A stretch of 64,000 nucleotides of DNA from Mesoterricola sediminis. Its GTDB lineage: Bacteria > Acidobacteriota > Holophagae > Holophagales > Holophagaceae. The stretch lies in assembly GCF_030295425.1 (NCBI RefSeq), contig NZ_AP027081.1:2711001-2775000 (forward strand), given 5' to 3'. The translations under genes and the position numbers were made by a program. Below are positions 7,591 to 29,693 of this stretch, in pieces. The notes beneath the pieces are model-generated. The model had not been told where the DNA came from. It did no database searches and was given only the letters and a program-made list of their open reading frames with translations. Positions within the stretch are counted from its first letter, which is position 1; each line of letters opens with the position of its first letter.

Positions 7591-7623
7591 CGGGAAGGTG
7601 TAGACTGTCGTTGAGGTTAGGTG

Positions 7624-8058
7624 ATGGCTTTCAATCCAGGCTCCAGGCACGGCCAGATGGCGGAAATCAACATGACGCCCCTCATCGACGTGATGCTCGT
7701 GCTCCTGATCATCTTCATGGTGGCGGCCCCCATGCTGACCACCGGCGTCGACGTCAACCTGCCCGAGAGCAGGACCGGGAAGAACCTGGAATCCGAGGCC
7801 CTCGTCGTCACCCTCGTGCGGGACGGGCGCATCGAGTTCGAGAAGCGCTTCGTCCAGGAAGGGGCCCTCAAGGCCGAACTCCGGCGCAGGGCCGCCGAGA
7901 GCAGGAAGCGCCCCGTGATGGTGCGCGCCGACCTCAACATCCCCTACGGCCGCGTCATCACCGTCGTCGACGCCATCCGCGAGGCGGGCTTCACCCAGGT
8001 GGGCTTCGTGACCCAGGCCTCCACCGCCCCCGCCGGCGCCGAGCCCCTGGCACCCTGA
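7624..8058 (+). CDS. exbD: ExbD/TolR family biopolymer transport protein
   Basis: 144 residues from ATG 7624 (a GTG at 7621 is in frame; AGGT at 7614-7617 suits the ATG). The N-terminus is cytoplasmic, with [12 protein letters not shown], the family motif holding the proton-conducting Asp ([14 protein letters not shown]), followed by a single membrane helix (about 20-40) and a periplasmic domain. ExbD works with ExbB to turn the proton motive force into movement of TonB. The TonB-like gene follows 7 bases later, but no exbB/tolQ is adjacent: the upstream gene is divergent topB. A -10-like TAGACT lies at 7601-7606. Confidence 0.88.
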
Positions 8059-8065
8059 GGCCGCC

Positions 8066-8881
8066 GTGAGCCAGGAACTCTACGCGTATCTCAGGGAACG
8101 GGCCAGGCTCGGCAGCCTCGGCCTCGGCCGGGGCCTGGCCGCGAGCCTGGCGGTGCACGCCGTCGCCGTGGCGGCCCTGCTCTTCACGCCCCAGTCCAAG
8201 GATGCGGAGGAGGAGACCAAGGTGACCTGGGTCTCCCTGCCCGCGGCCGGCGTCGCCGGCGAGGCCGGCGGCCAGGGTCCCCTGGAGGAGGGCAAGGAGG
8301 GCGAACGCCAGCGCCGGGTCGAGGAAGTGGCCCCCAAACGCAGCGAGCCCACGGGCTACAACGCGACCCCCAACGCCTGGGGCACCCGGCCCAGCCGCCC
8401 CGTCCAGGGCACCAGCACCAATCCCGACAGCATGGGCAAGGCCCCCGTGGCCTCCAAGGGCAGGAACCCCAGCCCCAACCCCACCCCCGGCGCCGCCGGC
8501 AGCGGCGGGGGCGGCGGCGTGGGCACCGCCACCGGCATCCCCGGGCTCCGGGCCACCAACGGCGTCGCCGGCGGCACCGGCCTCGTGGGGGACCTGGACG
8601 GGGACTTCCCCTTCCTGTGGTACCTGCAGCAGATCCAGGCCCGGATCACCGGCAACTGGAACCGCATGACCTCCAGCCAGGGCCGCGTCCAGATCTACTT
8701 CCGCATCCGCCGGGACGGCGGCATCGAAGGGGCCCGCGTGGAGATCCCCAGCAACAACGCCGCCCTGGACCAGAGCGCCCTGATGGCCGTTCGCCGCTCC
8801 GACCCCCTGCCCCGCCTTCCGGATGGGTTCGAGGCCAAGACCCTGGGGGTGCGCTTCTGGTTCACCTACCTGGGCAACTGA
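8066..8881 (+). CDS. TonB-family protein (C-terminal TonB domain)
   Basis: 271 residues from GTG 8066 with TGAGG just before it. A single N-terminal membrane anchor (about 22-42, SLAVHAVAVAALLF) is followed by a charged and then Gly/Pro/Ser-rich linker (about 60-175) that could span the periplasm. A C-terminal TonB/TolA-like domain (about 185-271) contains YLQQIQARITGNWN, VQIYFRIRRDGGI and L-D-Q-S-A-L. It pairs with the ExbD gene upstream; together they would energise outer-membrane transport or envelope integrity. The GNWN pattern resembles TolA/TonB proteins of Deltaproteobacteria and Acidobacteria, so a Tol-like role is equally possible. Confidence 0.82.
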   Translation: MSQELYAYLRERARLGSLGLGRGLAASLAVHAVAVAALLFTPQSKDAEEETKVTWVSLPAAGVAGEAGGQGPLEEGKEGERQRRVEEVAPKRSEPTGYNATPNAWGTRPSRPVQGTSTNPDSMGKAPVASKGRNPSPNPTPGAAGSGGGGGVGTATGIPGLRATNGVAGGTGLVGDLDGDFPFLWYLQQIQARITGNWNRMTSSQGRVQIYFRIRRDGGIEGARVEIPSNNAALDQSALMAVRRSDPLPRLPDGFEAKTLGVRFWFTYLGN

Positions 8882-24827: not shown

Positions 24828-27154
24828 CCCAGGCCGCTCGCAGCCGCGTCGGGGCGCGCGGCCCACCCCGTCAACCGGCCTTCCCAGCCGCGGCCGGTGG
24901 AGACCAGCCACCCCCCCGGCACCGCCTCGGCCCGGACGCCCAGGCTGTCGCCGGTGACGAACACCTGGGCGCCGGCCAGGGTGTCCAGCGTGGCGGCATG
25001 GGGATGGCCGAAGCGGTTGCCCCGCCCGGCGGTGACCAGGACGACGGGGGCCCCCAGGGCCTCGGCCCAGGCGCGGCCGGTGGCGCTGCGGCTGCCGTGG
25101 TGGCCGGCCTTGAGGAGCCGGTGGGGCGGGCCGGGCCCGGGGTCCCCCAGGTCCAGGAGGTCCGCTTCCTGGAGGGCCAGGGCGTCCCCCATGAGCCAGG
25201 TCTCGTGCGCCCCCCAGCGGATCCGCAGGACCAGGGAGTTCATGTTCACGTCCGGCAGGCGGAGGGGGCCCGGCGGCCAACGCACCGAAAAGGCCGCGGC
25301 CCCCCGGGTCCAGGCCGCCCCCCGGGCCAGGCTCCGGGGGTCCGTTCCGGGGGGCTGGAAGGGGGCCCAGGGCGGCGCCGCCATGGCGGGCCGGGCGACG
25401 CTGGCCAGGGGCCACAGGCGGGCGAGGGTCATCCACCCGCCCGCGTGGTCCAGGTGGGGGTGGGTCAGGACCAGATGGACGGGTTCCCGGACCCCCCGCC
25501 GGCTCAGCACCCGGACAATCCGGCGCGCGGCCCAGGGATCCGGTCCCGCATCCACCAGGGTGGCCTCGCCGCCGGGGGCCCGCACGAGGATCGCATCCCC
25601 CTGCCCCACATCGATGGCCTCGAGGCTGAAGGTGGCCGGCGGCGCGCCGGTCCCGCCCCGGGCGAGGAGCAGGAGGGACCCCAGGACCAGGGCCGCCGCC
25701 AGGGCGCGGGTGCGGCGGAAGGCGCTGGCCGCCTGACCCAACAGCAACCAGCCGGCTCCCAGGGCCAGCCAGGGCGGCAACCACCCGGTGGCCAGGGGGG
25801 TGATGCGGGCGAAGGCTGGCACCAGGGTCCCGCCCAGCCAGCCCAGGACGGCCCCCAGGGCCTCCACGAGGCCCGGCGCGGGCGCCAGGGTGAGGAGGAG
25901 GCAGGCCGGGACCAGGCACGAGACCAGGGGCAGCACCAGGAGGTTGGCGAGGGGCCCCCCCAGGGGGGCGCCCCCGTGCAGGACGGCGAGCAGCGGCAGG
26001 GTGGAAAGCCAGGGGGCGAGAAGGGCTGCCGCCGGGTCCGCCCAGCGGCCCGCGAGGGGCCCCAGGAGTCCCGCGACGGGCTCCCGGGCCCACAGCAGGC
26101 CCGCCAGCGCCCCCCAGGACAGGAGGAAGCCCGGATCGCAGCCCGAGGCGGGGCGGATCAGGATCCAGGCCGCCAGGGCCCCGTGGAGGGCCAGGACGGG
26201 GGGCGCCTTCCAGCCCGTCGCCCGGCCCGCGGCCCAGGCGAAGCCCATGAGCAGCCCCCGCCACACCGGGGCGCTGAAGCCCGTGGCGAGGGCGTAGGCC
26301 AGCCCGGCGCCGGCGGCGGCCCAGGCGCCCCCGGGACCCCGGAGGCGCCGCCAGAGCGCCTCCGCGGCGCCCATCACGAGGGTCAGGTGGAGGCCGGACA
26401 CCACGAGCACGTGCACCGTGCCGCTCTCGGCGAAGGGGGTGAAGGCCTCCGGCGAGGCCGGCGGGATGGCCAGGGCCATGGCCCCCCACAGGTCGCGGCC
26501 GGGCCCCCGCAGGGGCAGGGCCTCGAACCGGGACCGGACCCAGGCCCGGAGCCGCAGGAGGGGCCCGGGCCGGGGCGGGCCCAGGGGCGCCAGGCAGGCC
26601 CCCGAGGCCAGCCGGACGAACCGGGCCGGGCCGGCGTCCCGGGCCCGCCAGAGGGGCCGCTCAGCGAGGAAGGCCGGCGCGGGCGCCACCCGCTCCAGGG
26701 CGCCCCGGAAGACGACGGGGGTGCCCGGCCCCGGGGGCGGCGCGCTCCGGGCCGGCACCGAGACCCCCACCCGGAGGCCTTCGAGGGGCCCGGTCCCGGC
26801 CACTTCCGCCCGCAGGGACCGGCCCCGGAGGGTCCAGGGGGTGGCGACGCGCCCCCGGACCTCCTGGAAGCCTTCGGGCAGGGCGGCCTCCCGCCGCGCC
26901 TCCCCGGCGAGGGCGCCCAGGACGCCCCAGGCCAGGGCCGCCGCCAGCGCCACCCCGTTCCCGCGCCGCCGCAGGGCGAAGGGGGCCGTGGCCAGGACCG
27001 CCGCCCAGCCGAGGACCTGGAGGCCGGGGACGACCTCCCCGCTCCAGGCCTCCGGAAGGAGCCACGGCACCGAACAGGCCGCCGCAAGCGCCCAGGCCGG
27101 CCCCCAGAGGCCCGCGCCGCTCCACCGGCGCCAGAGGGATTCCCGGTCCAGCAT
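24779..27154 (-). CDS. comEC: ComEC/Rec2 DNA-uptake channel protein
   Basis: 791 residues from ATG 27154 (MLDRESLWRRW; 12 upstream in-frame codons rejected). N-terminal helices with a DUF4131 region (about 1-170), the Competence domain with VLVVSGLHLTLV and many membrane helices (about 220-500), then a C-terminal MBL domain with DVGQGDAILV, LTHPHLDHAGG and LKAGHHGSRSAT (about 520-740), which may degrade the non-transported strand. It forms the inner-membrane channel for transforming DNA. No other competence gene is nearby. The last ~15 codons fall in a cluster of palindromes. TAGACT lies 8 bases before the start (leaderless candidate). Confidence 0.92.
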   Translation of the reverse strand: MLDRESLWRRWSGAGLWGPAWALAAACSVPWLLPEAWSGEVVPGLQVLGWAAVLATAPFALRRRGNGVALAAALAWGVLGALAGEARREAALPEGFQEVRGRVATPWTLRGRSLRAEVAGTGPLEGLRVGVSVPARSAPPPGPGTPVVFRGALERVAPAPAFLAERPLWRARDAGPARFVRLASGACLAPLGPPRPGPLLRLRAWVRSRFEALPLRGPGRDLWGAMALAIPPASPEAFTPFAESGTVHVLVVSGLHLTLVMGAAEALWRRLRGPGGAWAAAGAGLAYALATGFSAPVWRGLLMGFAWAAGRATGWKAPPVLALHGALAAWILIRPASGCDPGFLLSWGALAGLLWAREPVAGLLGPLAGRWADPAAALLAPWLSTLPLLAVLHGGAPLGGPLANLLVLPLVSCLVPACLLLTLAPAPGLVEALGAVLGWLGGTLVPAFARITPLATGWLPPWLALGAGWLLLGQAASAFRRTRALAAALVLGSLLLLARGGTGAPPATFSLEAIDVGQGDAILVRAPGGEATLVDAGPDPWAARRIVRVLSRRGVREPVHLVLTHPHLDHAGGWMTLARLWPLASVARPAMAAPPWAPFQPPGTDPRSLARGAAWTRGAAAFSVRWPPGPLRLPDVNMNSLVLRIRWGAHETWLMGDALALQEADLLDLGDPGPGPPHRLLKAGHHGSRSATGRAWAEALGAPVVLVTAGRGNRFGHPHAATLDTLAGAQVFVTGDSLGVRAEAVPGGWLVSTGRGWEGRLTGWAARPDAAASGLGPPGGDRREGTAFPTP

Positions 27155-27162
27155 GGTGTCCG

Positions 27163-27168
27163 AGTCTA
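27163..27168 (-). promoter_or_regulatory. -10-like TAGACT, 8 bases before comEC (leaderless promoter candidate)
   Basis: On the minus strand TAGACT, then CGGACACC, then ATG 27154, with no Shine-Dalgarno sequence. Confidence 0.45.
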
Positions 27169-27191
27169 GGCCCGGGAGGATCCATGGCAAG

Positions 27192-27902
27192 ATGGAGGTT
27201 CATGCCGGAAAACAACCGATGATGCCACGTCCCTTGCGCCCCGCGATCCTGTTCGCCGCCGGCTGTTCGCTGGCCGCCTGGAGCCCCACCTTCCATGAGG
27301 CCCAGACGACCAAGGCCGCCCGCCTCCTGCCCGCGGGCATGGCCCGCTTCCTGGAGGACCACCGGCGCGACCTCCTCGCCGGGGCCCGGGGCCAGCACAA
27401 CGACCAGGTCCCCACCGTGGAGGACGTGGAGGAGCAGTTCCGCCGCGTCGTGGCCCTCTCGGAGGAGCGGAAGCGGCCCGAGCGCATCGCGCGGGAGCTG
27501 GGGGTCCTGGCCCACCAGGTCCAGCTCCTCACGGATCCTTCGGCCGTCAAGGGCGTCACGCCCCTCCGGGAATCCTTCCAGGCCTACGGCGAGGAGAAGC
27601 TGGCCCGGCTCGTGCTGAGCCGGGAGCCCTTCTGGGCCGTGGCGGCGCCCCTGGACCCCCGGCCCAAGCTGCTGGAATGGGCCCGCACCAAGTTCGAGCG
27701 GCACGAGGCCCTCCAGGCCTGGTTCGACGAGGGCACCGGCCGGAGGAAGGGCGGCTGGGACGAACTGTCCGTCCCCTTCGCCCAGCTCCAGCTGGCGTAT
27801 TCCAACGGCATCCACGCCACCGCCAACCTGTGGATCCAGCTCTGGCGGGCGGTCGGCGACCTCTGGGTGCCCCAGGCCGACGAAATCCACCCCGGCCGAT
27901 AG
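27192..27902 (+). CDS. Exported helical protein, distant zinc-phospholipase C / S1-P1 nuclease-like
   Basis: 236 residues from ATG 27192; ATGs at 27219 and 27222 are alternatives and there is no decisive RBS. A signal peptide (L-R-P-A-I-L-F-A-A-G-C-S-L-A-A-W) leaves a mature start near W-S-P-T-F-H. The body is all-helical. The sequence from the Trp, with L-L-P-A-G-M-A-R-F-L-E-D-H-R and later L-G-V-L-A-H-Q-V-Q-L-L-T-D-P, resembles bacterial zinc-dependent phospholipase C-like proteins. Several usual His/Asp metal ligands are not evident. Function is unproven. A 6-codon frame (ATG 27202) overlaps the ATG at 27219 and may be chance. Confidence 0.5.
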   Translation: MEVHAGKQPMMPRPLRPAILFAAGCSLAAWSPTFHEAQTTKAARLLPAGMARFLEDHRRDLLAGARGQHNDQVPTVEDVEEQFRRVVALSEERKRPERIARELGVLAHQVQLLTDPSAVKGVTPLRESFQAYGEEKLARLVLSREPFWAVAAPLDPRPKLLEWARTKFERHEALQAWFDEGTGRRKGGWDELSVPFAQLQLAYSNGIHATANLWIQLWRAVGDLWVPQADEIHPGR

Positions 27903-27941
27903 CCGTTTCTTGCTATCGTTCATTATCAACCTGGAGTGGAA

Positions 27942-29693
27942 ATGGCCTCGTATACCCGTCTCGGATCGTACTTGCTTTCCAGCGAACTCTCGGCGGATCC
28001 CCTCGGCAAGGTCCACCGGGGCCTGACCCTGAACGGCAGCGCCTTCGGCAAGCACGTGCTCATCCGGACCTTCCCGGACGAGGTGGCCGAAGCGGGCTTC
28101 TCCGCCAAGGTCCCCGAGGCCCAGCGCGTCGCGGGCCTCCTCGCCGGGACCCGCGGCCTCGGCACCGGCCACCACGTCGAGGCCGGGCGCGCCCCCCACG
28201 CCGTCTGCGACTACATCCCCGGGCGCAGCCTGGCCCAGGTGATCCGGAAGACCCGCGAGGAGCAGATCCCGCTCGGGGTCGACCACGCCCTGTCCGTCAT
28301 CCAGGGCATGGCCCAGGCCCTCCTGGCCCTGGACGCCAAGGGTCTCCACCACGGCCTCCTCACCCCGCACAGCGTCTGGGTGAGCTACGAGGGCGCCACA
28401 CAGATCATCGACACGCCGGGCGCCGCCGCCCTGGCCGCGGTCCTGCCCAAGGCGCGCCAGCTGGAGCAGACCCTCTCGCCCTACCGGCTCCCGGGGGCCT
28501 CCCCGCTCCACCAGGACCTCTACGCCCTCGGCGCCGTGCTCTTCGAGCTCCTGACCCTCGAGGCCCCTCCGGCCCGGGACGCCGCGGCCGCCGCCATCTC
28601 CCGCGCGACCCTCAAGGCCGCCCAGGAGGACGGCCCCATCCCCGGCGAGATCGCGGGCCTCCTGCGCAGGCTCCTGGCCGAGACCCAGGGCTTCTCCAGC
28701 CTCGGCGAGTTCAACAAGGAGCTGGAGCGCGTCCTCTACGACGGCGACCACAGCCCCACGACGTTCAACATGGCCTTCTACATGCATACGCTCTTCCGCG
28801 AGGAGAGCGAGCAGGACGTCCAGGCCATCAAGGCCGACCAGGCCGCGGACTTCACCCCCTTCCTGCCCTCCGACGCCTCGGCCCACAACGTCCTCGTGGC
28901 CCCCGACGGCACCAGCCGCGCGAAGTTCTTCATCTGGGGCGGCGTCGCCCTCGCCCTCCTCTTCGGGGTGATGGGCTACAACTACCTCCGGAGCACCCGG
29001 ATGAACGAGGACCTGCAGCGGCAGCTGGCCGAACTGCAGCAGAAGAACGCCGCCAACGACAACCGCCTCCAGGACCTGGCCAAGCAGGAGGAGGCCCAGA
29101 AGGCCCTGCAGGACCAGCTCGCGAAGAAGGCCTCCGAGGCCAAGACCGCCGAGGAGCGCGCCCGCGCCAAGAAGGACCTGGAGGAGGCCAAGGCCAAGGC
29201 CGAGGAACTGAACCGCCAGAAGGAGGAGGCCCTGCGCAAGCGGCAGGAGATCGCCAAGGAGACCACGGCCATCGCCCAGGCCGCCGCGCCCGCGGCCCAG
29301 CCGCCCCAGCCCGCCCCCGTGCAGGCCCCCGCCCCCGCCCCCAAGGTCGAGCCGGCCCCCGCCCCCGTGGCCCAGGCGCCCGCGGCCCAGGATGTGGTGG
29401 AGACGGCGGCCCAGATCGTGAACCGCACCGTGCCCGCCGCGCCGCGCATCAACAAGAGCTTCCTGCCCACGGCCCTGCGCGAGCAGGAGATCCGCGTGCA
29501 GCTCAAGGTGATGGTGGACGCCGGCGGCCGCCCCGCGCGCGTCGTGATCGTGAAGGGCGTCGACGGCCCCTTCGGCTACAACGACGCCGCCCAGCACGCC
29601 GCCCTCAACTCCACCTACAGCCCCGCCACCCGCAACGGCAAGCCCACCACCGGCTGGCTGACCCTGGAATACAACTTCGGGCGGCCCCGCTGA
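27942..29693 (+). CDS. Membrane pseudokinase with coiled coil and TonB-like C-terminal domain
   Basis: 583 residues from ATG 27942 (CTGGAG upstream; a GTG at 27936 is in frame). Residues ~5-270 have a Ser/Thr kinase-like fold, but the catalytic loop reads H-H-G-L-L-T-P-H-S instead of HRDLKPxN, the DFG position reads I-D-T-P-G, and the VAIK Lys is Arg (V-L-I-R). So it is probably a pseudokinase. One membrane helix follows (about 328-345, FIWGGVALALLFGVMGY), then a charged coiled coil (about 350-445), an Ala/Pro linker and a C-terminal TonB/TolA-like domain (about 480-583; IRVQLKVMVDAGGRPARVVIVKGVDG). This layout would couple a cytoplasmic sensor fold to the periplasm. No exb genes are adjacent. 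Confidence 0.8.
   Translation: MASYTRLGSYLLSSELSADPLGKVHRGLTLNGSAFGKHVLIRTFPDEVAEAGFSAKVPEAQRVAGLLAGTRGLGTGHHVEAGRAPHAVCDYIPGRSLAQVIRKTREEQIPLGVDHALSVIQGMAQALLALDAKGLHHGLLTPHSVWVSYEGATQIIDTPGAAALAAVLPKARQLEQTLSPYRLPGASPLHQDLYALGAVLFELLTLEAPPARDAAAAAISRATLKAAQEDGPIPGEIAGLLRRLLAETQGFSSLGEFNKELERVLYDGDHSPTTFNMAFYMHTLFREESEQDVQAIKADQAADFTPFLPSDASAHNVLVAPDGTSRAKFFIWGGVALALLFGVMGYNYLRSTRMNEDLQRQLAELQQKNAANDNRLQDLAKQEEAQKALQDQLAKKASEAKTAEERARAKKDLEEAKAKAEELNRQKEEALRKRQEIAKETTAIAQAAAPAAQPPQPAPVQAPAPAPKVEPAPAPVAQAPAAQDVVETAAQIVNRTVPAAPRINKSFLPTALREQEIRVQLKVMVDAGGRPARVVIVKGVDGPFGYNDAAQHAALNSTYSPATRNGKPTTGWLTLEYNFGRPR

Follow-up and report, generated by a model that had tools for sequence, protein, structure and literature searches.

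One gene in the window, the 64,000-nucleotide stretch of Mesoterricola sediminis DNA analysed here, raises the question of what a kinase fold that has lost its catalytic motifs does on the same polypeptide as a TonB-like domain. The original prediction read the gene product as a pseudokinase followed by a transmembrane (TM) helix, a coiled coil and a periplasmic TonB/TolA-like domain, and proposed that the dead kinase fold steers an envelope-energy domain. The observed pseudokinase–TM–stalk–TonB_C layout is confirmed (Table 1). In an AlphaFold2 model of the full protein, built on 28 homologues with a mean pLDDT of 84.6, an N-terminal kinase fold is joined to a compact C-terminal domain by a long helical stalk and a disordered stretch of Pro and Ala residues. 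All 28 full-length proteins aligned from the class, and more remote relatives too, keep the whole architecture, which is therefore not a product of chance. The gene starts at the ATG at 27942, with an in-frame GTG at 27936, and is overlapped by an antisense open reading frame of 978 aa (26661–29597, − strand). The sense frame is backed by homology and by a kinase-domain dN/dS of 0.08–0.19 in close pairs.

Table 1. Features of the pseudokinase gene and its upstream neighbour in the window (residue numbers refer to the pseudokinase protein)
Feature	Position	Strand	Basis
Upstream gene, hydrophobic N-terminus	27219–27902 (ATG 27219 or 27192)	+	directly upstream in 49/49 Holophagaceae loci with room
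Pseudokinase–TM–coiled coil–TonB_C gene	27942–29693	+	583 aa plus stop; full-length homologues
Pseudokinase domain, residues 5–289	27954–28808	+	pLDDT mostly >90; VIA Z 21–23 to kinases; PknB E 1e-7
β3 strand VLIRTF, Arg for VAIK Lys (residue 42)	28056–28073	+	alignment
HHGLLTP replacing HRD catalytic loop, residues 136–142	28347–28367	+	alignment with PknB
IIDTPG replacing DFG region, residues 155–160	28404–28421	+	alignment with PknB
Conserved C-lobe tail DGDHSPTTFNMAFYMHTLFREE, residues 267–288	28740–28805	+	most conserved stretch of pseudokinase clade
Single TM helix, residues 327–345	28920–28976	+	hydrophobicity; helix in AlphaFold2 model
Coiled-coil stalk, residues ~350–448	28989–29285	+	model helices 329–399 and 403–448
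Pro/Ala-rich flexible linker, residues ~449–485	29286–29396	+	sequence; pLDDT <50 at 450–483
TonB C-terminal domain, residues ~489–580	29406–29681	+	Pfam TonB_C; TonB fold, VIA Z 10.4

The N-terminal domain adopts a kinase fold with degenerate motifs, as predicted. It aligns with solved kinases over 230–256 residues, and the closest of these by sequence is PknB. In the PknB alignment, HRDVKPAN is replaced by HGLLTPHS, with H137-G-L in place of HRD, and DFG is replaced by D157-T-P; the Gly-rich loop is also degraded. The original claim that the three catalytic motifs are all lost thus holds for HRD and for the VAIK lysine (R42 in the window protein) and partly for DFG, where the Phe and Gly residues are gone and the Asp residue is retained. 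The same substitutions mark the relatives. None of 95 distinct pseudokinase sequences has the HRD Asp or the catalytic Asn, all have Gly at the HRD Arg position (motif HG[VFLIM]) and only four have Lys at the β3 position, whereas all 95 retain the subdomain IX Asp. By its sequence, the window protein is a member of a real, old and conserved pseudokinase family of the Acidobacteriota.

Full-length relatives occur throughout Holophagae and also in Thermoanaerobaculia and other Acidobacteriota, and Pfam detects TonB_C in 47 of 51 diverse pseudokinases. In a scan of a genome collection that had the tail motif among its patterns, nearly all matching records were named Acidobacteria, Holophagaceae, Geothrix or Thermoanaerobaculia, and the few records with other names look like misnamed bins. 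Some Holophagaceae genomes carry extra, more diverged pseudokinase–TonB_C paralogues (L143, G004:C1:504k; L144, G014:C13; L145, G023:C31).

Homologues with intact kinase motifs, which the original prediction regarded as contrary evidence, are absent from the pseudokinase clade but form a paralogous one. This sister clade surfaced among the weaker matches, is found in the same genomes as the pseudokinase and combines intact VAIK, HRD and DFG motifs with the matching TM–TonB_C architecture, TonB_C lying at the other end of the protein. Pkinase is detected in 23 of 23 sampled active twins and TonB_C in 18 of them. The pseudokinase clade has a single origin: a phylogeny of 59 kinase domains recovers the pseudokinases as a single group (100/100), adjacent to the active clade. 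A first pseudokinase profile (A2) failed to separate pseudokinases from active relatives, so wider profiles (A3 and A4) were built and their cross-scores checked, and the two clades were then cleanly separated. Across 297 genomes of the phylum, the profiles identify a pseudokinase in 59 genomes and an active twin in 87, with one match each, and both in 57. An active twin is therefore present in 57 of the 59 genomes with a pseudokinase versus 30 of the 238 without one. Counted per taxonomic family, 17 families hold both proteins, two only the pseudokinase, nine only the active kinase and 52 neither (Fisher p 4e-9, the families not being fully independent). One of the two pseudokinase genomes without a twin at the cut-off is a 500-contig draft. 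Several of the 30 genomes with a twin and no pseudokinase above the cut-off hold weaker pseudokinase matches, and the overlap is thus a lower bound.

Within the window's own family, two 1.2-Mb genomes lack both the pseudokinase and the twin, and genus g2 keeps a divergent twin with no pseudokinase. The two genes are not neighbours: that of the active twin lies at ∼1,517.6 kb of this genome, 1.2 Mb from the pseudokinase gene. TonB_C is missing from the active twin of each of the four Holophagaceae studied (L140, L176, L177 and L179) and likewise from that of an f3 genome (L178), and the Holophagaceae twin stops within a few residues of the TM helix. In an f3 genome, the active-kinase counterpart (L201, G036:C331:65500–69000, + strand) is itself degenerate (VAIK to VTIR, HRD to HGD and DFG to GFG), apparently through a second, independent loss of kinase activity; this genome also holds the usual pseudokinase. 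A 776-aa protein (L207, G009:C16:30000–33800, − strand) contains an intact PknB-like kinase, a TM segment and a PEGA-like stretch, ends in TonB_C and by appearance lies outside the twin clade.

Purifying selection acts on the pseudokinase family: two close pairs have dN/dS values of 0.19 and 0.08 in the kinase domain and of 0.17 and 0.18 in TonB_C. The values are higher between the window protein and its nearest relative (0.42 and 0.73), which indicates either looser constraint in the window's lineage or a noisier estimate. Constraint in the pseudokinases has shifted away from the active site towards the C-lobe tail. Mean column identity among them is 0.30 in the kinase body and 0.63 in the tail, where the conserved sequence reads PTTFNxAFFMH, and the order is reversed in the active twins (0.64 in the catalytic body and 0.34 in the tail). 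When the rows found by the tail pattern were left out, the pseudokinase values were 0.28 for the body and 0.62 for the tail, and the contrast was unchanged. The constraint on the tail may reflect a binding surface that was acquired or reinforced as the active site was lost.

The analysis points to an envelope sensor of two parts, not to an energy pump. Our preferred reading, plausible though held with reserve, is that the pseudokinase is a sensory or allosteric partner of an active kinase and reports the state of the envelope. TonB_C, carried on the stalk and the flexible linker, would bind a periplasmic partner (an outer-membrane or cell-wall protein), and the pseudokinase domain would bind the active kinase or its substrates through the conserved tail and the C-lobe. 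The state of the envelope would thereby alter cytoplasmic phosphorylation. Because the active twin of Holophagaceae lacks TonB_C, sensing by the pair would in this family depend on the arm of the pseudokinase alone. A more specific proposal is conceivable and correspondingly more tentative: active and dead Ser/Thr kinases with matching TonB_C arms may compose a transmembrane receptor of two subunits that serves the double-membrane envelope of Acidobacteriota. The pseudokinase would be the allosteric half that reads the ligand, and in Holophagaceae it alone would have a periplasmic arm. The pairing is supported by the single pseudokinase group (100/100), the co-occurrence in 57 of 59 genomes, the joint absence from the two 1.2-Mb genomes, the presence of TonB_C in both clades, the opposite patterns of constraint and the low dN/dS in close pairs. 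Against it, the co-occurrence is confounded by shared ancestry, each protein also occurs without the other (in two and 30 genomes at the cut-off), the genes are not adjacent and g2 has a twin without a pseudokinase.

The gene neighbourhood bears on a different role, that of an envelope scaffold independent of the twin, in which TonB_C would bridge to the wall or outer membrane while the pseudokinase holds a cytoplasmic wall-synthesis factor. An analogy is provided by the mycobacterial MviN pseudokinase domain, which binds FhaA. Outside Holophagae, mltG, which encodes an endolytic transglycosylase, lies directly upstream of the pseudokinase gene in 18 of 23 loci, and an SLT transglycosylase is encoded two genes downstream at one locus (L126); the conserved tail, moreover, could bind any partner. 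The mltG adjacency points to peptidoglycan, but the neighbours vary across the pseudokinase family. In Holophagaceae, mltG is found nearby in none of 53 loci and the upstream neighbour is another gene in 49 of 49, so the link to peptidoglycan is not general. A scaffold would also leave unexplained why an active twin with the same arm is almost always present, and we consider this role somewhat unlikely.

In the window, the upstream gene ends 39 bp before the pseudokinase ATG; it is a probable operon partner of the pseudokinase in Holophagaceae only. Its small product belongs to no known family, with no match in Pfam or NCBIfam or, by sequence, in the PDB. The protein contains the motifs WSPxxHEAQT, AHQVQ and HATAN and might be a metal-dependent hydrolase. 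Among the loci outside Holophagae (L115–L139), many of those from Thermoanaerobaculia have a CsgG/LpoB-like lipoprotein-type gene next downstream on the opposite strand, beside mltG and the pseudokinase gene.

A second alternative is the idea of the original prediction itself, a true TonB in which ExbB/D drive the periplasmic arm to work on a receptor in the outer membrane, with the dead kinase gating this motor. The domain assignment behind this idea is sound. Pfam TonB_C matches the window protein above the family cut-off (E 1.2e-6), the C-terminal domain folded alone has a pLDDT of 93.8, and TonB C-terminal domains are the top matches of the isolated domain in the PDB (Z 10.4, 10.2 and 9.0), ahead of the best TolA match (Z 6.4). 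The periplasmic domain is thus related to TonB, as had been claimed, and is more TonB-like than TolA-like; a TolA identity was rejected on these scores. PASTA repeats have no match in the window protein, and TonB_C stands in their place. The order of TM helix, stalk and Pro-rich linker is also that of TonB.

The evidence on energy coupling points the other way. In Escherichia coli TonB, the equivalent TM His residue (SHLS) is needed for coupling to ExbB/D. A strict SxxxH pattern was dropped as a TonB marker and a looser test for an inner His or Tyr residue was adopted, since SxxxH is present in one of 18 scanned sequences (two of the 18 were mis-framed and later removed). An inner His or Tyr residue is found in the TM helix of 13 of 16 kinase-free TonB-like proteins from the same group of genomes. 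The corresponding counts are 5 of 98 for the pseudokinases and 0 of 23 for the active twins. The TM helix of the window pseudokinase lacks this residue, typical of TonB-like proteins, which argues against ExbB/D drive. ExbD and plug-bearing TonB-dependent receptors are present in all 41 relatives tested, as a TonB function would allow; the proposed check for co-occurrence with ExbB/D and a receptor is for that reason uninformative and does not discriminate. No exb gene, whether exbB or exbD, and no receptor gene adjoins the pseudokinase gene, and the genome encodes further TonB_C proteins as well as its own tolR–TonB/TolA-like pair. This pair lies in the window ∼20 kb from the pseudokinase gene and comprises a tolR/exbD-like gene (7621–8058, + strand) followed by a TonB/TolA-like gene (8066–8881, + strand), whose product keeps SxxxH in its TM helix, forming an energised-type pair with tolR. 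Furthermore, the same TM–TonB_C half is present in intact kinases, as would be expected of a receptor more than of a motor. The pseudokinase–TonB_C protein is unlikely to act as a motor, a true TonB gated by a dead kinase is highly improbable, and the term envelope-energy domain is not upheld. A TonB_C domain need not imply an energy transducer, which is relevant to automatic annotation.

A decaying kinase without a function of its own is hardly credible, because, despite the loss of every catalytic motif, the pseudokinases form one clade over several classes, with a strongly conserved tail, open frames throughout and dN/dS well below 1 in close pairs.

Several known systems come close to the window protein. 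PASTA receptor kinases of the PknB/StkP type, which link wall state to phosphorylation in Gram-positive bacteria, likewise consist of a cytoplasmic Ser/Thr-kinase fold, one TM helix and an extracytoplasmic ligand-type domain. The window protein differs from them in that it lacks catalytic residues, contains TonB_C instead of PASTA and is paired with an active twin, which is closer to PknB/StkP-type kinases than the pseudokinase is. The TonB energy transducer shares the C-terminal fold (Z 10.4) and the order of TM helix, stalk, Pro-rich linker and C-terminal domain, but in the window protein the TM helix is preceded by a cytoplasmic pseudokinase of 300 residues, and both an inner polar TM residue and exb neighbours are absent. 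The MviN-type and EssB/YukC pseudokinases of Gram-positive bacteria are also membrane-bound with a non-catalytic role, although their host phyla and partners are different and TonB_C is not mentioned for them (PMC12599244). The GLW pseudokinase family has likewise lost all three catalytic motifs, but it has GLW in place of HRD and is mostly proteobacterial, whereas the present family has H-G-x, in which the Arg position is invariably Gly (PMC12599244). Membership of the GLW family, as defined there, was rejected on the basis of the HG[VFLIM] motif (PMC12599244). TonB and Acidobacteria are both absent from a 2025 review that covers the families of bacterial pseudokinases (PMC12599244).

Each of the three elements, a bacterial pseudokinase, a membrane receptor kinase and a TonB_C domain, is known already. 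In the literature searched, which covered few subscription papers, no description of a kinase–TonB_C or pseudokinase–TonB_C architecture was found, nor were the combination, the live twin of the same architecture and their near-constant pairing. A periplasm-reading Ser/Thr-kinase receptor built on TonB_C was likewise not found in the searchable literature. If the proposed pairing is true, the kinase and pseudokinase, one each in many Acidobacteriota genomes, would constitute such a TonB_C-based receptor that reads the periplasm, and would provide a bacterial parallel to eukaryotic receptor pairs in which one kinase is dead.
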